Shown here in pieces: positions 18,361-41,351 of a DNA stretch of 64,000 nucleotides. Position 1 is the stretch's first letter. Each line of letters opens with the position of its first letter. The notes below the pieces were generated by a model. The model made no database searches. It saw only the letters and a list, made by a program, of their open reading frames with translations, and was not told where the DNA came from. Source of the DNA: Polyangiaceae bacterium (GTDB lineage Bacteria > Myxococcota_A > Polyangia > Polyangiales > Polyangiaceae); contig JAICQL010000004.1 in the NCBI GenBank assembly GCA_025937895.1, positions 1 through 64,000 of the forward strand. The letters are read 5' to 3'. The translations under genes and the position numbers were made by a program.

Positions 18361-19821
18361 TCAGCGAATCACGAGCGGGTATACACAGGCTCCGTTGGTG
18401 CAGGGGACGCTGCTGCAACAGTCGCTGCTCTGGCTACACGCCTGCCCGAACAGCGCACAGCTGTAGCTGGGCGGGCTCTCGCCAGCCGGTGGGTCCTCAC
18501 CGCCGCCCGGCGGAGTCTCACCGCCGCCGGGCGGCTCCTCACCCTGGGGCGGCGTGCCGCCGCCGCTGCTGCCGCCGCACACGCCCTGCGTGGAGCCGGG
18601 CAAGGAGGTGCACACCACCCCGGCGCAGCAGTCGCCGTTCACCGTGCAACTGCCGCCGCTCGGGATGCAGCCGGAGGGCTCTTCACTGCTCGCACAGCGC
18701 AGCTGACCCAGCGCATCGGCCACGCAGCGGCGGCCATCGCAGCAATCCATGGCGGAGGCGCAGGTGTCGCCCCCGGCGCGGCACTCGCTCAGACCGTTGC
18801 AGCGGGGTACGCCCAGCGGATCGAGCTGGCAGGCGCCGCTGTTGCCGGTCGCGCCGCAGCAGTTGTTGCGCGAGCTGGAGATGCTGCAGGTGTAGTCCTG
18901 ATAGTGGCAGACGTTGCCCTGCGGGCTGCAGCCCAGCGGGTTGCGGCAGACGCCCACGTCCGCGCCCGGCTCCTTGTCACAGGTGACGTTGCCGTCGCCG
19001 GGCAAGCCGGTGCCGGCAGCGCCGCAGCAGTCGCTGTCCTGCCGGCACAGATCGCCGTTCACGCGGCAGCCGCTGGCGGGCTGGCAGACGAACACGCCGC
19101 TGTCGCCGAAGGGAGCGCACAGGCGGCTGCAGCACTGACCGCAGCCGTTGCACAGGCTGCCGTCGATGCCACCGTTGCAGTTGCTGGCCCCCTCCGGGGG
19201 AGCGCCGCAGGTGCCCACCTTGGCCCCCTCGGCGATGCTGCACGTGCCGCCGCAGCACTCCGAGTTGGCGGCGCACAGGTCGCCAGCTTGCGTACAGAAG
19301 GAGCTGGCGAGCGAGCAGCTGCCGTCCTTGCACAGCCCCGAGCAACACTCGCTGCCCGCGTCGCAGGCGTTGCCGGCGGTGCGGCAGGTGAGGTTCAGCG
19401 CCGCGCAGCTGCCAGCTGCGCAGCTGCCGCTGCAACACTCGTCCCCGGAGCTACAGCTGCCACCGTCCGAGACGCAAGCCGCCTCGGAGCAGCTGCCGCT
19501 GCGGCAGCTCAGACTGGAACACTCCAGGCCATTCAGGCACTGCGCGCCCGGTGGCTGGCTGCTGGCGACGACGTGCGCGCCACCGGGGCTGGTGCTGATG
19601 GTGCCGGGCAGATGGTTCGGGGGCTGCGTTGCAGGCTGTTCGCCGGGCTCCAGGTTGGAGTCGGGAAAGAGCTCGACCGGCAAGCCCGGCGTCGAGGAGG
19701 CGCCGCCGCTGCTCGTAGCGGGCGTGACGGACGTGCCCTGGTGCGGCTTGTTGCTGCTGCCGCAGGCGATCAAAACGAACACGCTGGCGAGACCCAGCGC
19801 GCCACGAAGTGCTTTGCTCAA
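18361..19821 (-). CDS. Lipoprotein with tandem cystine-knot-like modules
   Basis: The 486-residue protein has a signal peptide with lipobox LIAC (Cys20), a Gly/Ser/Pro spacer, then about nine modules with the spacing C-x6-C-x5-CC-x3-C-x4-or-more-C (for example CRTAGNAC, DAGSECC, SGLC). This spacing equals the six-Cys framework of inhibitor cystine knots. A Pro/Gly linker (about 430-460) separates the last module. No catalytic motif is present, so binding, adhesion or armour is likeliest, by inference. Start is TTG 19821, supported by GAGAGGAT and by the leader. An RpoE-like promoter lies about 50 bases upstream. Confidence 0.85.
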   Translation of the reverse strand: MSKALRGALGLASVFVLIACGSSNKPHQGTSVTPATSSGGASSTPGLPVELFPDSNLEPGEQPATQPPNHLPGTISTSPGGAHVVASSQPPGAQCLNGLECSSLSCRSGSCSEAACVSDGGSCSSGDECCSGSCAAGSCAALNLTCRTAGNACDAGSECCSGLCKDGSCSLASSFCTQAGDLCAANSECCGGTCSIAEGAKVGTCGAPPEGASNCNGGIDGSLCNGCGQCCSRLCAPFGDSGVFVCQPASGCRVNGDLCRQDSDCCGAAGTGLPGDGNVTCDKEPGADVGVCRNPLGCSPQGNVCHYQDYTCSISSSRNNCCGATGNSGACQLDPLGVPRCNGLSECRAGGDTCASAMDCCDGRRCVADALGQLRCASSEEPSGCIPSGGSCTVNGDCCAGVVCTSLPGSTQGVCGGSSGGGTPPQGEEPPGGGETPPGGGEDPPAGESPPSYSCALFGQACSQSSDCCSSVPCTNGACVYPLVIR

Positions 19822-19868: not shown

Positions 19869-19897
19869 TGAGACGGAGCAGCTGGCGGGAAAGTTCC
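19869..19897 (-). promoter_or_regulatory. Third ECF-type promoter, before the cystine-knot lipoprotein gene
   Basis: On the minus strand GGAACTT (19897-19891), 17 bases, then TCTCA (19873-19869), with CG just before and after the -10. It differs by one base in the -10 from the two sites flanking the sigma gene. Predicted transcription start is near 19862, about 40 bases before TTG 19821. Confidence 0.55.
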
Positions 19898-19946: not shown

Positions 19947-20666
19947 TCAGAGGGCCGCGCGATACCCCACGAACAGCGACGTGCCGCCCAGGTGCGAGTC
20001 TCCAGTTGTGGTGTGCTGGAGCGGCGCCCAGTGTGGGAGCAGCTCGCCAAACAAGCTGCCGGGGCCCAGCTCGAGCTCTGCACCCAGCGGCACGCCGAAG
20101 CCGAGCTTCATCGAGCGCTCCGGCGTATCCTGAAAGCTCTGCCCGCCGGCCTTGCCCCGTACCACGCTCTCCAGGAAGTAGACGCGCGGTCCGATGCCGG
20201 CGTACGGGGTGAGCCGCTCCACGAGGCCCGTCAGGCGGTAAAAGAAGGTGGGCTGCAGCACCAGCTCCTTCTGCCGCAGCTCCCAGCTGTACGTTCCGCC
20301 ACCTGGAATGCGCTCCGGAACGAAGCTCTCGCTCTGGGTACCCTCGGCGCTGGGCGCAGTGTATTCGGCGGCGAGCACCACGGCCAGGCGCCCCCCCAGC
20401 GCAGCGAAGCGGTAACCCGCCTCGATGCCGAAGTGGGCAAAGGGGCTCAGGCCGTTGAAGGAGGCGAGGCCACCGACCTTGCCGGCGAACAGCAGGGCGC
20501 CGCCCTCGCTGTCTGGAGCCACCGCCTGCGGCGCTGACTGTACGCCGCCATCGGCGCTCAGCTCCGCGGCTGCGGCCCCGCTGGCCAGCAGCAAGCTGCT
20601 CAGCCCGAGCGCGCCCGCCGCCCACCCCGCACGGTTCACTGCACGGCCCACTGCACGTCTCATCAT
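19947..20666 (-). CDS. Outer-membrane beta-barrel-like protein
   Basis: A 239-residue exported protein. A basic start and Ala/Leu-rich signal peptide (about 1-34, ending SGAAAAE) are followed by alternating aromatic and hydrophobic strands (FAHFGIEAGYRF, LVLQPTFFYRL, LTPYAGIGPRVYF, SLFVGYRAAL), the look of an 8-10-strand OmpA/OmpW-like barrel. Two adjacent ATG codons (20666, 20663) follow GAGGGA; both are possible. The upstream gene ends at 20690, so the two are likely cotranscribed. A partner or porin role beside the surface lipoproteins is inference. Confidence 0.75.
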   Translation of the reverse strand: MMRRAVGRAVNRAGWAAGALGLSSLLLASGAAAAELSADGGVQSAPQAVAPDSEGGALLFAGKVGGLASFNGLSPFAHFGIEAGYRFAALGGRLAVVLAAEYTAPSAEGTQSESFVPERIPGGGTYSWELRQKELVLQPTFFYRLTGLVERLTPYAGIGPRVYFLESVVRGKAGGQSFQDTPERSMKLGFGVPLGAELELGPGSLFGELLPHWAPLQHTTTGDSHLGGTSLFVGYRAAL

Positions 20667-20689
20667 CGTTCCCTCGTTGCGCGAGCGCA

Positions 20690-23600
20690 TCACCACACCA
20701 CCGTTTCCGTCGAAGTCGTCACCCCGCTGCCGGTGTCACCGGCGAGCAGGAAGATGAAAGCGCTCTGGATCGAGCTGCCCATCAGGTACCGCGGGCTGGT
20801 CATCGTCAGCCCTTCGTTGTTCCAGGAGTTGTTGGCCAGCTGCGGGCTCGGGTCGACGAAGCCAGCGGCGATGGCGTTCGAGAGCGGAGCGCCGTTGCCG
20901 CTGCCCCCAAACACGAACAGGCGGTCGGCGGCGCCTGCCGAGCCGTAGCCGACGCGTGTGGAAGTGAAGTCCTCCACGGTGTCGCTGGGCCCGGCGATGT
21001 CGGCGAACGCGCCGAGCTCGCCACCCGCCTGCACCACACCTGCCTCGACCACGCCGCTGCGAGCGGACTCGTCGCCGAGCAGACCACCACCCAGGTAGAC
21101 ATAGGTCGTGCTGCCCGAGACGAACTGCGAGTCGACGCTGTCGATGGCCCAGGCGCCGTGCTGCCAGCGGCCCACCGCGGACTGCTCCGCACCCGTGGTC
21201 CACGCATCGCCGATCAGCTGGCGGCCGTTGTCGAGCACGGTGACGGGCAGGTACTCGTACGTCGTCAGACCGCTCGTGCCGTTGCGACCGAGCAGTGAGT
21301 AGACGTACCAGGTGCTGGGATCTGCCGGGTCCACCGCAGCCACTCCGCGCGCGCCTTCGCGAGCGGTGTTCAGGTCCGGCAGCGCTTGCCAGCGGCTGGT
21401 CGAGCCGAGCGGCAGCGGCGTCTCGCCGGGCACCAGCACGGCGCTGCCATCGTCGACGAGCTCCGTCACGCTCGCCGCCACCTCTGCCAGCAGTTGCTCA
21501 TCGCTGCCCGGTACGCCGTCCTTCGGGGTGCGGTAGACGCGGTAGCCCGTGATGCCGGTCAGGGCATCCCCCTGAGAGTCCGTGGGCGTCGACCAGTCCA
21601 GCTTGACCAGGATCGACCGATCCTGAGTCCCGCGCAGGCGCAGGATCAGCGCGTCGGACGCCAGTGTCTCACCGCCCAGGTTCTGCGGGTCGGCGTCGTC
21701 GATCAGAGCAGCCACGCGGTACGAGTAAGTGCCCGGCTCGAGGCCGGCGCCGCTCGCGCCGAAGCAGGCGGCGCTACCGCCGCCCAGGCACAGATCCACG
21801 TTGGCGATGCCCGGGATCTCTTCCGGTGAGAGCACCAGCGCGCGAGCACCGGAGGCGAGCGGACCGTTGCCGTCGTTGCCGCCGAAGACGTACAGGTAGC
21901 GGCCCAGGGTGGCGTCGGCCGCAAACGTGCGCGCCGCAGGCAGGGGCTGGCGGCTGGTCTGCCAGGGGTTCATGTTGCCGAACAGATCCACCGGTGCAAA
22001 CTCCACGCTGGAGAGCGCCGAGCTGACCGCGCCGCCATCGCCGCCGACGGCGTACACGAAGCGCGCGGCCGACGTGGCCTGGATGGCGGAGGAGGCCAGC
22101 GCCCGGCGCGCGACGTTCAGCGCGGGGCCCGGGCGCGGTGCCGACAGGTTGTAGGAGCTGTTGGTGATACCCACCGCGGAGAACTCGGCGTACACGCCGT
22201 CCTCGTTGGTCACCCGCGCCACGCACACGTCACCGGCGGCGAGCGTGCTGGTGTCGAAGGTGGCGCTCTGGGTGCAGCCGCTGGTGCAGGTCTCGGTGGC
22301 GCCGCTGCCCGCGATGGTGACCTCGCCGCCGCCCGTGGCGCAGCGCAAGCTCAGCTCCGCTCCGGAGAAGCCGGTGCCGCGCAGCTCCAGGGTCTGACCG
22401 CTGGCGTTGACCAGCGACTGTGGCACGGCATCAGTGACCGCGGGCAGCGCGCCGGTGACCGACGTGAACACGTCGCTCAGCACCGCGACGGCTCCATCCG
22501 GCCACACCAGGACCAGATCGTATTCACCCGCAGGCGTGCCGCTGGGCACGATGGCCGTGAGTGTGGTGGCGTTGATGGGGGTCACCGACTGCAGCTGCAC
22601 GGCGGGTTCGTCGCCCGCCGGGTTCAGGAACGCGCGCGGCACCCCGCCCGCGCTGGTCGCGCTGCCCAGGACGATGGTCATCGCCTGCGATGCGCTGGCA
22701 GAGCCGAAGGGGGGCGAGACCACACCCTGATCGATGCTCAGGTTGTCCGTGACGGTGATGGCGCGCGTCATCACTGCCGCGCAGCCGCTGCCGTCATTGA
22801 CTGCGATGTCGTATTCACCCGGCTCCGTACCCGCGGGCACGGTGGCTTGCAGCTGTGTGGTCTTGCCGGGCGCGAGCGCCGCCTCGAGGGTGATCGGCGT
22901 CGCGCTGGTGCTGCCGCTGGACCACATGGTGACCGTGAAGGGCGGCTGCAGCGCGGTGACGAACAGGTTTACCTTGGTGTTGATGTCGTTGTAGGCCACG
23001 GCGGGATCGGCGTTGAACAGCACCGGGCCGTCCGTACCCACGATCGTCTGGTGCGGCAGCGGGCGGTCCTGGCAGCCGTCGGGGTTCTGCACCACCAGGC
23101 TGCAGCTCTCGCCGGGCTCCACACCGGGGCCGAAGGTCATGCTGAGCTGGTCGCCGGCGCCGTTGACGGAGCTGGCGAGCGCCGTGAGCGTGGTGTTGCC
23201 GCAGGTCAGCTGCGCGCTGGCACCTGGCTGAAACGCAGACCCGGCCGCGACCAGCACGCTGCCGCCGCTGCAGACCGTGCCCGGCGCCACGCCGTCCACG
23301 CGGGGCGGCGGGTTGATGGTGAAATCGACGCTGGTGCCGGAGCTGCAACCCACCGGATCGGGGTTCGTCACCCGCAGTGAATACGTGCCCGGCAGGAACT
23401 GCTGGCTGGGCAGGGTGAAGACCAGACCGGTGCACAGCTCCATGCCGAAGCTCCCGTCGGTGCCCTCGGGCGGCGCGCAGCCGCTGAGCGACTCGGGCGC
23501 AAACGTGGTCTCGGCGCCGCCAGCGGCCACCACCGTGACGGTGGGGCGCAAGCTGCCGCCCACCACCGCGAAGGAGCCGCCTTCGACGGTGAGTGATTGG

Positions 23601-24493
23601 TCGTTCTGATCGAGGCAGACGCCCGTCGGGGCGACTCGGCTGACCAGCGGCGCGGGTACGACCACGAGCTGGTGGGGCTCCGCAGACTGGCAGGATGCAG
23701 GCTCCGCGCTGGTCACGACCAGCGAGTGCGTGCCTGGCGTGAACTCGTTCTGTCCGAGGGTCAGGGTCAGGCCGTCGCACAGCTCCAGCTGGCTGCCAGC
23801 GAACGTGCCAGGCACCTGCTGGCAGCTGGAGGTGGTCACGGCGTTCGCCGCCTGACCGCTCAAGGTCACGTGCGGCGGCGCACCATCCAGGCTCAGGAAG
23901 TTGCTGCCCGCGATGTTCACGGCGCGGCTGCCCTGGTCGGTGCACACTGCCAGCGGTGAGCTGGCGCTGGAGTCGCCGATGGCGAGCGAGCTCACCCTCG
24001 GCGGCTCGATCACCGCGAGGCTGCGCGGCAGGTTCTGCAGCGTCTTGCCGTCGGGGTTGGTGACCTGGACGTCATACAGGCCGGCGCCGAGCTCGACGCC
24101 GGGGTTGCCGCTTGCGGGCTCGGTGATGCGCAGGCTCAGCTGCTCGCGGCTCTGCCAGCTGAGCTCGCTCGCGTGCTCGCCCTGCGGCGCGCCGGAGAAG
24201 CTCACGGGCGCGCCGCTGGCCGCTCCGCCCGTGAGATCGGCCGTGCGCGTCAGGCTCACGCTGGGCAGGTTCAAGATCGGAGGCTCCGCCAGCACGTTGC
24301 TCGGCATCGGCGCGAAGCCGCTGCCGCTCAGCACCACGAAGGTCTCGGGCGTGAGGCGCTGCGCATTGCAGAGCAAGTCCGGACCGACGCTCTGTACGGT
24401 CAACTTCGGGCTCTCGACCTCGTGCGCACAGCCGACGGCGCACGTGCCGAAGATACCCGCCAACAAACCTAGATTGAGAGTTCTGTATGACAT
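20690..24493 (-). CDS. Large lipoprotein with IPT/TIG repeats and kelch-like segments
   Basis: A 1,267-residue exported protein. The signal peptide ends in a lipobox-like AVGC (Cys22). Several Ig-like IPT/TIG repeats follow (about 30-760), each ending in phrases such as YDVQVTNPDG, YSLRVTNPDP and CSLVVQNPDG. Kelch-like blades surround a fibronectin-III-like stretch in the C-terminal 500 residues (RFVYAVGGDGG, YLYVFGGNDGNG, RLFVFGGSGNG; ITGYRVYRTPKDG). Such proteins usually act as surface adhesins or carbohydrate-binding scaffolds. It starts 60 bases after the heptad-repeat gene and ends 24 bases before the barrel gene, so it sits mid-operon. Confidence 0.85.
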   Translation of the reverse strand: MSYRTLNLGLLAGIFGTCAVGCAHEVESPKLTVQSVGPDLLCNAQRLTPETFVVLSGSGFAPMPSNVLAEPPILNLPSVSLTRTADLTGGAASGAPVSFSGAPQGEHASELSWQSREQLSLRITEPASGNPGVELGAGLYDVQVTNPDGKTLQNLPRSLAVIEPPRVSSLAIGDSSASSPLAVCTDQGSRAVNIAGSNFLSLDGAPPHVTLSGQAANAVTTSSCQQVPGTFAGSQLELCDGLTLTLGQNEFTPGTHSLVVTSAEPASCQSAEPHQLVVVPAPLVSRVAPTGVCLDQNDQSLTVEGGSFAVVGGSLRPTVTVVAAGGAETTFAPESLSGCAPPEGTDGSFGMELCTGLVFTLPSQQFLPGTYSLRVTNPDPVGCSSGTSVDFTINPPPRVDGVAPGTVCSGGSVLVAAGSAFQPGASAQLTCGNTTLTALASSVNGAGDQLSMTFGPGVEPGESCSLVVQNPDGCQDRPLPHQTIVGTDGPVLFNADPAVAYNDINTKVNLFVTALQPPFTVTMWSSGSTSATPITLEAALAPGKTTQLQATVPAGTEPGEYDIAVNDGSGCAAVMTRAITVTDNLSIDQGVVSPPFGSASASQAMTIVLGSATSAGGVPRAFLNPAGDEPAVQLQSVTPINATTLTAIVPSGTPAGEYDLVLVWPDGAVAVLSDVFTSVTGALPAVTDAVPQSLVNASGQTLELRGTGFSGAELSLRCATGGGEVTIAGSGATETCTSGCTQSATFDTSTLAAGDVCVARVTNEDGVYAEFSAVGITNSSYNLSAPRPGPALNVARRALASSAIQATSAARFVYAVGGDGGAVSSALSSVEFAPVDLFGNMNPWQTSRQPLPAARTFAADATLGRYLYVFGGNDGNGPLASGARALVLSPEEIPGIANVDLCLGGGSAACFGASGAGLEPGTYSYRVAALIDDADPQNLGGETLASDALILRLRGTQDRSILVKLDWSTPTDSQGDALTGITGYRVYRTPKDGVPGSDEQLLAEVAASVTELVDDGSAVLVPGETPLPLGSTSRWQALPDLNTAREGARGVAAVDPADPSTWYVYSLLGRNGTSGLTTYEYLPVTVLDNGRQLIGDAWTTGAEQSAVGRWQHGAWAIDSVDSQFVSGSTTYVYLGGGLLGDESARSGVVEAGVVQAGGELGAFADIAGPSDTVEDFTSTRVGYGSAGAADRLFVFGGSGNGAPLSNAIAAGFVDPSPQLANNSWNNEGLTMTSPRYLMGSSIQSAFIFLLAGDTGSGVTTSTETVVW

Positions 24494-24553: not shown

Positions 24554-25201
24554 CTACTTGCGACCTCCGCTGGCGCGGCGCTCCTGCGCCGCCGCGGGCA
24601 ACTCGGCGCTGCGGCGCCGTTCGGCGGCGGCCTGGCGGTGCTGCACGGCAGCGGCGCGCCGCTCCTGCGCGGCTGCGCGCCGCTCCTGAGCCTCGGCGCG
24701 GCGCTCGCCGGCTGCCGCGCGGCGCTCCAGAGCGCCGAGCCGCTGAGCCTGGGCGGCGTCGCGACGGGCGCTCGCCGCAGCCAGGCGCTCGCGAGCAGCC
24801 GCGAGCTGCTTCTGCACGGGCTTCTGGTGAGCGCTGCGCTGAGCTGCGCTCTTGCCCTGCTCGGAGCCGTTCACCGCCGCGCCGGCAGCTGCCGCGCGCG
24901 TGTGCTCGGCGCGGTGGCTGTCGCGCCGTGCGTGCGCCAGCCCGACATGGAGGCGAGCGCTGTCGGAGGCTTGCTCCGGTAGCTCGAACAGCGGCAAGGT
25001 GGGCAAGGGGGCGCGCTCTGCATCCGGCGCGGCGCGCTTGCTCTCGGCGGGCCGGTTCTGCTCCGGGCCGGGGCGTTCGCGCTCCGCCGCCTGAGCCTGG
25101 TGAGCGCCTCCCTGCGCCGCCTCCGGTGCTGGGTCCGCCGCCAGCACGGGCGCGGCGAAGACGGCGAAGAGAGCGGAGATCTGGAGAGTGCGTGCAATCA
25201 T
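24554..25201 (-). CDS. Secreted Arg/Ala heptad-repeat protein, divergent from the sigma factor
   Basis: The 215 residues comprise a clean signal peptide (1-21), a charged Pro-rich segment, the motif LPLFELPE (69-76), and a helical tail. The tail (about 159-200) is made of seven-residue repeats of the form ERRAAAQ and looks like one long basic amphipathic helix. AAAGGA eight bases upstream supports ATG 25201. The motif FELPE also occurs in the periplasmic part of the anti-sigma factor encoded across the intergenic region. The gene is the first of the minus-strand cluster behind an RpoE-type promoter. No family is recognised; an anti-sigma ligand, competitor or envelope sensor is inference. Confidence 0.75.
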   Translation of the reverse strand: MIARTLQISALFAVFAAPVLAADPAPEAAQGGAHQAQAAERERPGPEQNRPAESKRAAPDAERAPLPTLPLFELPEQASDSARLHVGLAHARRDSHRAEHTRAAAAGAAVNGSEQGKSAAQRSAHQKPVQKQLAAARERLAAASARRDAAQAQRLGALERRAAAGERRAEAQERRAAAQERRAAAVQHRQAAAERRRSAELPAAAQERRASGGRK

Positions 25202-25264
25202 CTTGGAGTTCCTTTCCGAAACGAGAGCGCAGCGTTGGTGCGAGCACCCGTGCGCCGACAGCCA

Positions 25265-25293
25265 TCAGACGAGACCCGCTGCGCGAAAGTTCC
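25265..25293 (-). promoter_or_regulatory. RpoE-type ECF promoter for the minus-strand surface cluster
   Basis: On the minus strand GGAACTT (25293-25287), 17 bases, TCTGA (25269-25265). The bases around the -10 read TCTCGTCTGATGGC, nearly identical to the promoter facing the other way. Predicted start of transcription near 25258 gives a leader of about 57 bases before ATG 25201. Confidence 0.7.
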
Positions 25294-25352
25294 CGCCCCT
25301 TCGTCGAGCGCGCGCTCACCTCGGTGTGCTCCAAAGAAAGAGCTGCAGACGG

Positions 25353-25380
25353 GGAACTTCGCGCCCGTACTCTCGTCTGA
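25353..25380 (+). promoter_or_regulatory. RpoE-type ECF promoter for the sigma/anti-sigma genes (autoregulation)
   Basis: GGAACTT (25353-25359), 16 bases, TCTGA (25376-25380); the -10 context TCTCGTCTGACGGC differs from the divergent site at one base. It matches the classical sigma-E consensus. Predicted transcription starts near 25387, directly before the sigma factor gene. Confidence 0.72.
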
Positions 25381-25405
25381 CGGCTTGGACGCCATTGCTT
25401 CAGAG

Positions 25406-25984
25406 GTGTTCCAGAAAGCTCGTGCGGGTGATCCGCAGGCTTTTCAGGAGTTGATTCGGCCCCACCTGGAGTCCGTGAGGCGCTTCGTGTTTTCATTGTC
25501 GAGCAACTGGCAGGACGCGGATGACATCACGCAGGAGGCCTTGCTCAAGGCGTTCCGTGCCTTCGCCAGCTTTGATGGCAGGTCCGCCCTCTCCACCTGG
25601 CTGTACGCGGTGGCGCGCACCACCGCCATCGATTGGCATCGCAGCCGGCTGGGGCAGGCAGGCCAGCGCGAGAACCCTCTGCCGAGCTCGCACCCCGCGC
25701 CCGTGTTGCAGCAAGACGAAGCCTGCAGTCAGCAGCAGGACAGCGAACGGCTGTGGCAGGCGATTCGTTGCCTGGCTGAGCGCAACCGCGTACCGCTGGT
25801 GCTGTTCGAGGTGGAGGGACTCTCCTACGAGCAGATCGCGGAGCTGGAGGGCGTGCCCGTCGGCACCATTCGCTCCCGGCTGAGCCGCGCGCGGGCCGAG
25901 CTGCGCGAGCGCCTGGCCGAGCTGCAGCCGCGCAGCGGCGTGCAAGGTGAGGCGCCCGCCTCGCTGCGGAGGATGCACGGATGA
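25406..25984 (+). CDS. ECF-family RNA polymerase sigma factor
   Basis: Directs RNA polymerase to RpoE-type promoters. Region 2 runs from FQELIRPH to WLYAVARTTAIDWHRSR (including DADDITQEALLKAF), and region 4 from RVPLVLFEVEGLSYEQIAELEG to VGTIRSRLSRARAELR, the standard helix-turn-helix. The frame is open upstream to 25100, but that stretch overlaps the divergent gene and the promoters. The predicted transcription start near 25387 makes GTG 25406 (192 residues) the first usable start; TTG 25385 is an alternative with seven more residues. The stop overlaps the next start as ATGA, the usual sigma/anti-sigma arrangement. Confidence 0.9.
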   Translation: MFQKARAGDPQAFQELIRPHLESVRRFVFSLSSNWQDADDITQEALLKAFRAFASFDGRSALSTWLYAVARTTAIDWHRSRLGQAGQRENPLPSSHPAPVLQQDEACSQQQDSERLWQAIRCLAERNRVPLVLFEVEGLSYEQIAELEGVPVGTIRSRLSRARAELRERLAELQPRSGVQGEAPASLRRMHG

Positions 25985-26970
25985 ACGACGCACAGCTCAG
26001 CGAGCAGCTCCGCGCGCTGCGCCAGCCTGCACCGGACGCGGGCTTCGAGGCCCGCCTGCAGCAAGCGCTGTGGCGTGAGGCGCAGGCGCTGCGCGCCGAG
26101 CGTGCGCTCGCGCAACCCGCTCCTGCACGGCGGCGGCGGCTGTCGCGCTGGAGCGGGCGCCTGCTCGGGGCTGCTCTGGTGCTGGGTGCGACCGCTGCCG
26201 CTGCTGCGGCGGGTGGCGTATGGAGCCTCGTCTCCGGGCGCGCGCTCGTCTCGCCCGCCATCGAAGCGGGGCCGGCAAGCGGCGCTGCCGCGGGCGCGAA
26301 GCGGCGCGCTGCAGCCACGAGGGCGGAGCCGCAAGCCCCCGAAACCGATCCTGTTGCCCCCGCGCAGCCAGCGGAAGCGGCGGAGCTGTCGCCTGCTGCT
26401 GCAATACCTTCCGCCGCAGTGCCCGCCGCGGCAATTCCCGCTGCACCTGCAGCGAGCCCCGCGCATGATGCTGCCCCCGCCCAGAAGGCGCTGGCTGCGC
26501 CACGTGGCGCCCTGGAGAGCCAGGAGCGCGCTCCGGCCCCTCGCACGCGCGGCACGCGCGGCGGCGGCGCCGGAAACGAGAGAGGCGCTCGGGCCCTGCC
26601 GCCGAGCGGCGAGACGATCGGCGCTGGCGCGCCGGGAGCTGCAGGCGCGCAGGGGGCGCAGCCTGTTGCACCCCTGCTGCTTCCTTTCGAGCTGCCCGAG
26701 CACCCGCGGCCGGCGGCTCCCTCGCAGCAGGAGCGGAGCGCACGAGAGCGACCGGCGCCAGAGCGCGGCAGTGCCCGGCCGGAGCGCGAACGGCGGCCGC
26801 CGCCTGACCTGGCGGCGCGCGGGGAAGGACGGCGGGCGCGGCCAGACCGTCGGGAGCGGGAGCGCGGCGCGTGGGCGCCCGGCAGAGACATCGCGCGCGA
26901 GCGCTCCCGGCGGGACCACGCCGAGCGCGGCCTGGAGCGGGCGAGGGAAGCGCGTGAGCGCAAGAAGTAG
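25981..26970 (+). CDS. Putative membrane anti-sigma factor with periplasmic FELPE motif
   Basis: A 329-residue single-pass protein. A cytoplasmic helical N-terminus (1-50, MNDAQLSEQLRALRQ onward) would bind the sigma factor; there is no zinc-type H-x3-C-x2-C motif. A transmembrane helix (about 60-82) follows, then a long Ala/Pro-rich periplasmic arm, the motif LLLPFELPE (232-240), and an Arg/Glu-rich tail ending in REARERKK. Function is inferred from the ATGA overlap with the sigma gene and from topology, not from sequence family. The FELPE motif and charged tail mirror the divergent secreted heptad protein. Confidence 0.78.
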   Translation: MNDAQLSEQLRALRQPAPDAGFEARLQQALWREAQALRAERALAQPAPARRRRLSRWSGRLLGAALVLGATAAAAAAGGVWSLVSGRALVSPAIEAGPASGAAAGAKRRAAATRAEPQAPETDPVAPAQPAEAAELSPAAAIPSAAVPAAAIPAAPAASPAHDAAPAQKALAAPRGALESQERAPAPRTRGTRGGGAGNERGARALPPSGETIGAGAPGAAGAQGAQPVAPLLLPFELPEHPRPAAPSQQERSARERPAPERGSARPERERRPPPDLAARGEGRRARPDRRERERGAWAPGRDIARERSRRDHAERGLERAREARERKK

Positions 26971-28834
26971 AGTCTGCCCGGCAGGTACGCTGGCGGCCGT
27001 GCTCGCGGCCCTGTCGGTGGTATCTCCGGCGCCAGCGCGGGCCGAGCGCGCCCTGCGAGCAGCTGGCCCGGCGCCGCACGCGCCGGCGTCTGCGCAGCGG
27101 CTGAGCCTCGCGGCGGAGCACTTTGGAGCGGGGCGCTATGCGGCAGCGCGCCAGCTCTTTGATGAGCTGCTGGCCGGCGACGCGGGCCTCGGCGAGCGCG
27201 ACACCATCGCCTTCAATGCCGCCGTGGCGAGCTACGCGCTGGCAGAGTACGCGGACGCGCTGCGGCGCTTTCGAGACGTCGAGCGCGCGCATCCCCGCCT
27301 GGCGGCGCTGGCGCGCATCAACGCGGGCTTTGCCGCGCTGCGTTCCGGCGACCTGGCGCTCGCCGAGCGACAGGCGCGCGCCCTGGAGCCTCTAGCGCAG
27401 GAGCTGGAGGTGCGCCGGCAGAAGCTCCTGGCGGAGCTCGAGCAGACGCGCGAGCTGGCGCGCGGCGAGGCTCGCCAGCAGGAGCTAGAGGTTGGGTTCA
27501 CCGAGCTCGCGGAGCAGCGCTGGCAGTCCGCTCGAGAGCATTTTGCGCGTGCGCTGTCGGGCGCCCCAGGCAGCGATCGCGAGACGCTGGCGGACGCGCA
27601 CTATGGCCTCGGCCTGGCCGCCGCGCAGCTGGGAGAGACGCAGGCGGCGCAGCGCCACTTCGAGCAGAGCCTGCGGCTCCGCCCGCACGACGGGCGCTCC
27701 CTGCTCGGGCTGGCTCAGCTCGCCGAGGACGGCGCAGATCCGCTGCGCGCCGAGCGCGCGTACGAGTCGGCGCTGGAGCAGCCGCTCGACGAGTCCGAGC
27801 AGCGGGACGCGCAGCGCGGGCTGCTGCGCCTGTATCCCTTGCCGCGCAGCGGGCCCACCGCCTACCTGGCGCTCGGAGCAGGCATCGATGGCAATGCCAC
27901 CCAGTCCGGCTCGGGCGATCTGCTGGCGACCGGAGCGCCCGAGCGCCAGTCCAGCCCTTACGCTTCGGGGCTGGTGGAGCTCGGCATGGCACTTCGAGCC
28001 TCGCGCCGCAGCGCGCTGGGCCTGAGCTACACGGGAGACGTGCTGGCGCTGTTGCACGCTGGCGTGGACGACTCGAGCCTGCAGGCGCACGAGCTGGTGG
28101 CGCGCTGGCAGTGGGCGCCCACGCCCGCCCTGCGCTGGCGCCTGGATGCCGGTGTCGCGCACGTGCTCGCCGGGCTCTCGCCGGTGCGCAGCTTCGAGTG
28201 GGATGGTGTGCTCGCGCTCACCATGGATCTGCAGACGGGCGCGCGCTCTCGAGCTCGGGTGCAGCTCGGCGATCGGCTGGTGCAGGCCACCGAGCTGTCG
28301 TATCTGGACGGACATCGCCTGCACCTGCTGGCGACCGAGATCTGGTCGCTGGGCGGCTGGGAGCTCTCGCTGCAAGGAGCGCTGCGCTACGTATCCGCCG
28401 GCACCGAGCGCGTGGCGCTGGCCGCCGATGCCCTGGAGTCGTGCAGCCCGAGCTGCGAGCGGCGCAGCTATCACAACCCCTACAGCTACTGGTCACCGGC
28501 GCTGGGCGCCGGGCTCGGCTGGCAGGCGATCGAGCGCCTGCGCTTTGCCTCGCAGCTGCGCGCGGAGTATCGCGGCTACCTGGAGCAGAGCTCGATCACG
28601 GGTATTCCCGACAGCCACGACCTCCGGCGAGATCTGCGCCTGCGCGGCCAGCTGGGCGCGGAGCTGAGCCTGGATGAAGCAGGTCGCTTTCGGGTGACCC
28701 TTGACCAGACGCTGCTGGCCAGCATCTCCAGCGTGGCCTGGGACCCGGCGCACCCGAGCCACCAGTATGACTACGGGGATCGCAACTTCCTGCAGCCCAC
28801 CACGGAGCTTGGAGTGTCGGCGAGCTTTCCGTAG
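26954..28834 (+). CDS. TPR protein with C-terminal outer-membrane beta-barrel
   Basis: A 626-residue exported protein with a signal peptide (about 1-31, ending PAPARA). TPR-type helices occupy about 40-290 (LSLAAEHFGAGRYAAARQLF; ADAHYGLGLAAAQLGETQAA). The C-terminal 320 residues are beta-rich (YLALGAGIDGNATQSG, SALGLSYTGDVLAL, LRFASQLRAEYRGY) and end in a polar/aromatic strand, SASFP. TPR plus barrel resembles BcsC- or SLAM-like outer-membrane exporters, though no specific family is claimed. GTG 26954 overlaps the anti-sigma gene by 17 bases, so sigma factor, anti-sigma factor and barrel form one operon. Confidence 0.78.
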   Translation: MSARSRVCPAGTLAAVLAALSVVSPAPARAERALRAAGPAPHAPASAQRLSLAAEHFGAGRYAAARQLFDELLAGDAGLGERDTIAFNAAVASYALAEYADALRRFRDVERAHPRLAALARINAGFAALRSGDLALAERQARALEPLAQELEVRRQKLLAELEQTRELARGEARQQELEVGFTELAEQRWQSAREHFARALSGAPGSDRETLADAHYGLGLAAAQLGETQAAQRHFEQSLRLRPHDGRSLLGLAQLAEDGADPLRAERAYESALEQPLDESEQRDAQRGLLRLYPLPRSGPTAYLALGAGIDGNATQSGSGDLLATGAPERQSSPYASGLVELGMALRASRRSALGLSYTGDVLALLHAGVDDSSLQAHELVARWQWAPTPALRWRLDAGVAHVLAGLSPVRSFEWDGVLALTMDLQTGARSRARVQLGDRLVQATELSYLDGHRLHLLATEIWSLGGWELSLQGALRYVSAGTERVALAADALESCSPSCERRSYHNPYSYWSPALGAGLGWQAIERLRFASQLRAEYRGYLEQSSITGIPDSHDLRRDLRLRGQLGAELSLDEAGRFRVTLDQTLLASISSVAWDPAHPSHQYDYGDRNFLQPTTELGVSASFP

Positions 28835-33688: not shown

Positions 33689-33780
33689 GGCTGTGCGGCA
33701 TGAGGCTGTGCGGCATGAGGCTGTGCGGCATGAGGCTGTGCGGCATGAGGCTGTGCGGCATGAGGCTGTGCAGCATGAGG
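33676..33780. repeat. 15-bp tandem repeat, 7 units
   Basis: Seven head-to-tail copies of CTGTGCGGCATGAGG; six are perfect and the last has one base change (CAGCATG). The array overlaps the 3' end of the winged-helix gene and is followed by a diffuse repeat of GTAGA(A)GCCCACCCCGT-type phrases (33780-33845). It is not a CRISPR: there are no spacers. Confidence 0.95.
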
Positions 33781-33865
33781 TTGTAGAAGCCCACCCGTCA
33801 TGGGGCCGACCGTCGTAGAGCCCACCCCGTTGTAGAACGAGCCGCAGTCGCCTACTGCTAGCGCC

Positions 33866-41208: not shown

Positions 41209-41351
41209 CACCTCGGGCAGGAAAGGAACCGTGAGACACCAGCTCACGTCAAGAGGCGTTGCTCGAGCGAGCTGTTTCGACCGAAAAGCCGAGCCCAGCG
41301 CGGAGCGAGCGTGCCGGGTGGAAACAATCGCGCAGTCCGGCCGGCGCGGCT

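Follow-up and report, generated by a model that had tools for sequence, protein, structure and literature searches.

A divergent pair of probable ECF-type promoters beside an ECF sigma factor gene of a Polyangiaceae bacterium is conserved with the sigma family

Two nearly identical promoter-like elements point away from each other ahead of an ECF sigma factor gene in a 64,000-nucleotide stretch of a Polyangiaceae genome (the window), which raises the question of whether this sigma factor reads both of them and so controls the genes on either side. A preliminary description had proposed this, with one sigma factor driving its own operon and a divergent surface gene cluster, and had suggested a genome scan with the promoter pattern and a comparison with related genomes as checks. 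Direct reading and a pattern search recovered both elements to the base at the coordinates, strands and spacings given there, with the −10 contexts as quoted (Table 1). GGAACTT and TCTGA are the wording of the E. coli RpoE promoter, to which the window sites are nearly identical in wording and spacing, and AAC at −35 and CGT at −10, as expected of ECF promoters, are present at the sequence level in both. Transcription would be expected to start near 25258 from the minus-strand element and near 25385–25387 from the plus-strand element. No sigma-70-like promoter was scored between 17900 and 29700.

Table 1 Features of the sigma factor locus in the window
Feature	Position	Strand	Sequence or basis
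Cys-rich putative lipoprotein gene	18361..19821	minus	ORF list
Third promoter candidate, ECF-type	19872..19897	minus	GGAACTTTCCCGCCAGCTGCTCCGTC; about 50 bases ahead of the Cys-rich gene
Small putative outer-membrane protein (by eye)	19947..20696	minus	Overlaps the 20690..24493 gene; no family match
Putative surface lipoprotein with Kelch motifs	20690..24493	minus	Weak Kelch matches; IPT/TIG-like repeats and lipobox by eye
First gene of the divergent set	24554..25201	minus	Charged protein rich in Arg and Ala, with an apparent signal peptide; ATG preceded by an AAGGA-like ribosome site
Candidate promoter of the divergent gene set	25293-25265	minus	GGAACTTTCGCGCAGCGGGTCTCGTCTGA; GGAACTT-N17-TCTGA, core GGAAC-N17-CGTC; sequence and pattern search
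Candidate promoter of the sigma operon	25353-25380	plus	GGAACTTCGCGCCCGTACTCTCGTCTGA; GGAACTT-N16-TCTGA, core GGAAC-N16-CGTC; sequence and pattern search
ECF sigma factor gene (sigma2 + sigma4)	25385..25984	plus	Pfam/NCBIfam, start-codon comparison, alignment
Putative membrane-bound anti-sigma factor	25981..26970	plus	Overlap with the sigma stop codon; alignment with genes at the same position in relatives
TPR domain and predicted 14-strand outer-membrane beta-barrel	26954..28834	plus	Predicted structure, fold matches

The pair is close to unique in its genome. With spacers of 15–18 bases, the strict GGAACTT/TCTGA pattern matched twice in the window and never in 100 dinucleotide shuffles; with spacers of 14–18 bases, the scan of all 8,569,221 bases again returned two matches, both at this locus, against one for the pattern read backwards (the source assembly is fragmented, with 425 contigs, 92% completeness and 8.57 Mb). 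By our own arithmetic, two random matches would both fall within 116 bp with a probability of about 3 × 10−5. The loose core GGAAC-N16/17-CGTC had 161 matches genome-wide versus 448 for its backwards control, and given this lack of excess no regulon was read from it; among the 48 of the 161 matches that were examined, none outside this cluster was convincing. One loose match with spacer 17 in the window (41225–41250, plus strand) has no T before CGTC and looks like chance. Another, the minus-strand match GGAAC-N16-CGTC at 25388..25412, falls within the first part of the sigma gene, carries G rather than T before CGTC, and is probably also due to chance.

The sigma gene encodes 199 amino acids with Sigma70_r2 at residues 23–88 and Sigma70_r4_2 at 121–173; by this domain content, sigma2 and sigma4 only with a linker of fewer than 50 residues, the predicted product is a general ECF (group IV) sigma factor. 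The label RpoE-type, applied to the locus earlier, fits the promoter sequence and fails for the protein: the sigma-E equivalog model TIGR02939 gives 97.9 bits against a cut-off of 236.15, so an RpoE ortholog was rejected. A candidate promoter almost in E. coli wording is found here with a sigma factor that is no ortholog of RpoE and with a neighbouring gene that lacks a family match. Comparison with relatives suggests TTG at 25385, with GTG at 25406 as the alternative, because the N-terminal length that results from the former fits the family; as this TTG coincides with the expected transcription start, the message would be nearly leaderless if that start is used.

To follow the sites among relatives, we built a profile from four sigma factors, which identified ten members among 184 genomes of the order (206–356 bits, versus at most 146 for every other ECF sigma factor); the ten-member profile added ten more in the class (177–239 bits, the last three being the least secure). 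The resulting 20 loci, for all of which the surrounding DNA was taken, include the window and, apart from G001 (same genus, nearest by taxonomy), come from other genera or families. A related-locus search of genome contigs gave general ECF genes only, and these served as controls. The control comparison covered 23 further ECF genes from the order and 80 unrelated ones, with 11 same-order control loci omitted since the rule used left their orientation unsettled.

The core GGAAC-N16/17-CGTC is present upstream of the sigma gene (−330 to +20) in 16/20 family loci, with exact sites on both strands in 8/20, compared with 1/23 among the remaining order-level ECF genes and 10/80 among unrelated ECF genes, none of which has a pair. 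The motif is therefore kept with the sigma gene in related genomes, the outcome on which the initial proposal depended. Between −250 and +20, the ten order-level loci hold 13 exact sites, against a mean of 0.10 in 500 shuffles (maximum, 2). Position is conserved as well: an exact plus-strand site lies 39–57 bases ahead of the start of the sigma match in 6/10 order-level loci (window included) and 116–191 bases ahead in 8/10 class-level loci. All exact sites have a spacer of 17, except for the sigma-side site of the window and the weak match at 25388–25412, both with 16. T directly precedes CGTC in 25/33 sites and A is third after it in 22/33, in agreement with the context TCGTCTGA, which yields a family consensus of GGAAC-N17-CGTC, usually with that T and that A. 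The GGAACTT/TCTGA wording, exact in the window, is in its full form particular to this genome, and the conserved part is GGAAC...(T)CGTC..A. The four loci without an exact upstream core are G001 (CGTT one-mismatch versions only, spacer 16, on both strands), G033 and G189 (a site at the anti-sigma gene only) and G274 (no exact site).

GGAAC/CGTC is a widespread ECF consensus, and another of the many ECF sigma factors of this genome (about 49 ECF-like matches to the window sigma) could therefore share the sites; the local sigma factor would then be a target and not the driver, and ECF-to-ECF cascades of this type have been proposed (PMC3817407). We consider it unlikely that another factor is the main reader, given that across 20 genomes the sites accompany this sigma family and occur before just one of 23 further ECF genes from the order, and that a shared regulator would be expected to have left more than the two strict sites present in this genome.

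The genes on the divergent side also recur among relatives. The product of the first one has a counterpart in G148 (39% identical over 116 amino acids) that is likewise Arg/Ala-rich, G112 carries a similar Kelch-like gene beside its sigma gene, and Cys-rich genes adjoin the sigma gene also in G112, G111, G219 and G222; neighbour genes recur on both sides of the sigma gene in relatives. Divergent-side products of relatives are secreted and highly charged, with ADKKE-type repeats in G306, G307 and G309 and EF-hands in G001 and G063. This very variation in content (Arg-rich proteins, EF-hands, charged repeats) could mean that the sigma-side promoter alone is functional and that the circuit does not involve the divergent genes; in addition, two loci, G090 and G033, reach contig ends on the divergent side. 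Such a reading has little chance of being correct: an exact divergent site accompanies the sigma-side one in 8 loci, G148 and G063 keep the divergent site where no exact sigma-side site is seen, and the divergent genes, for all their variety, repeatedly encode secreted proteins. Least probable of all, to the point that we give it almost no weight, is that the two sites, which form an imperfect inverted repeat with 36-nt arms (72%), are a chance or duplicated repeat or the operator arms of a dimeric regulator, because, leaving out the TCTCG adjacent to the −10 element, the spacers resemble each other no more than shuffled bases do, so that the likeness resides in the promoter elements, and because relatives keep −35/−10 pairs at fixed spacing while their spacers and inter-site distances differ.

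Site co-conservation and the recurrent divergent genes thus support the proposal that a single ECF sigma factor serves both the operon it belongs to and the divergent cluster of surface genes, and co-conservation is also what points to recognition of the sites by the adjacent sigma factor. We regard this local circuit, taken as a whole, as very likely. Both elements would act as promoters for RNA polymerase carrying the adjacent sigma factor: the plus-strand one would drive sigma, anti-sigma and TPR-barrel genes, giving positive autoregulation, and the minus-strand one would drive the gene of the secreted protein on the divergent side together with those that follow it. At rest, the membrane-bound putative anti-sigma factor would hold the sigma factor, which an envelope signal would set free.

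The two elements first described are both present, and further copies exist, ahead of the Cys-rich gene in the window and ahead of the anti-sigma gene in relatives. The former would drive the Cys-rich lipoprotein, and like-placed sites precede Cys-rich genes in G222 and in G219, where they form a divergent pair. In eight relatives, an extra exact copy precedes the anti-sigma gene, at or just beyond the 3′ terminus of the sigma gene. In seven of them it lies inside the sigma gene, where CGTC closely precedes the anti-sigma start and is 21–28 bases upstream of the point at which the sigma stop codon ends; in G063 it lies just past the stop. At the order level, 7 such copies were found versus 0.02 expected. 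Both codon phase 0 and codon phase 1 occur among the intragenic copies, an indication that the DNA, rather than the protein, is what has been conserved there. The window, the main sigma copy of G001 and G148 lack this copy. We found no clear precedent in the literature searched for a sigma-dependent promoter within a sigma gene before the anti-sigma gene, an absence that in itself proves nothing. If active, the anti-sigma promoter of the eight relatives would offer simple tuning of the sigma to anti-sigma ratio.

A second, partial sigma gene lies at a contig end in G001 (locus L026, C470:8000-14291). Over 72 amino acids it shares 57% identity with the window sigma. Its 3′ end carries a core site, and the anti-sigma reading frame that comes next ends after about 46 codons; this copy may have decayed, or the assembly may have truncated it. 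Four loci (L025, L058, L059 and L061) carry an exact core site after the TPR-barrel gene, about 3.6–3.8 kb downstream of the sigma start, which in G033 precedes a putative Cys-containing lipoprotein gene.

In the anti-sigma candidate, a short N-terminal segment (LRALRQPAPDAGFEARLQQAL) precedes a hydrophobic stretch, interpreted as a single transmembrane helix, and a long Arg-rich C-terminal part follows. The zf-HC2 zinc finger is typical of anti-sigma factors; the candidate has no Pfam match of its own, zf-HC2 (zinc-finger class I) included, and the same-position genes of the two class-level relatives tested, G307 and G222, both have this domain. In alignments, class-level members combine the zinc-finger N terminus with a conserved C-terminal domain resembling a beta-sandwich, and order-level members have a short N terminus with either this C-terminal domain or a tail rich in Arg, a pattern that would fit a loss of the zinc finger. 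The short cytoplasmic segment before the transmembrane helix recalls, by layout alone, the CnrY-type short anti-sigma factors (class II; PMC8103513), from which the zf-HC2 proteins of class-level relatives differ. The Arg-rich tail and the secreted protein of the divergent side both contain FELPE, but homology between them was rejected, as BLASTP found none.

The protein encoded next has a predicted structure with a mean pLDDT of 86, a pTM of 0.69 and, by our own count, 14 strands, and its matches listed by Foldseek include BcsC, OmpG and PelB, which are among the top ones, and CymA. It shares an N-terminal TPR part, a C-terminal barrel and 14 predicted strands with Slam/DUF560 and BcsC/PelB proteins (PMC8406197); Slam proteins join TPR repeats to a barrel (PMC8406197), and the TPR domain with 14-strand barrel that marks Slam and type XI secretion is present in the predicted structure. 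Unlike Slam, the protein has no DUF560 match in Pfam scans (TPR_Slam appeared below the cut-off, in one relative only), and no Slam structure is among the fold matches listed, outside which one may still lie.

ECF systems are characterized by AAC/CGT promoters, a neighbouring anti-sigma gene and autoregulation, the last of which has been used to mine ECF promoters (PMC8103513, PMC3817407). The window locus shares with autoregulated group IV factors the protein of sigma2 and sigma4 only, a GGAAC/CGTC-type self-promoter and a putative anti-sigma gene overlapping the sigma stop (PMC3817407, PMC8103513), and differs in its recurrent divergent second promoter, in the copies before the Cys-rich gene (window) and the anti-sigma gene (relatives), and in strict sites that are local and not spread over the genome. 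Two divergent units driven by the same ECF sigma factor are found in the EcfG/PhyR-NepR general stress locus of Alphaproteobacteria (PMC8103513); the divergent gene there encodes the regulator PhyR, and here secreted or surface proteins. Given known autoregulation and these divergent units, the circuit is of a known kind, to which it adds another case: there are earlier examples of ECF sigma factors that autoregulate and also have divergent targets, and the conserved multi-copy promoter layout is the feature of its own. In a bacterial group that has received little study, a promoter pair spotted by eye marks a local regulon that is conserved. More tentatively, and with more doubt than confidence on our part, the circuit may be class-wide, with sigma factor, anti-sigma factor and secreted cargo each under its own promoter copy, the anti-sigma copy giving an extra sigma-dependent dose as a built-in shut-off, and a TPR-barrel exporter and surface lipoproteins under control; the window genome would then represent a branch that has lost the intragenic copy. 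Elsewhere in the window, an open reading frame at 33690–33790 (plus strand) translates as a repeated LCGMR peptide, which reflects a short tandem repeat (about 15 bases) in the DNA.
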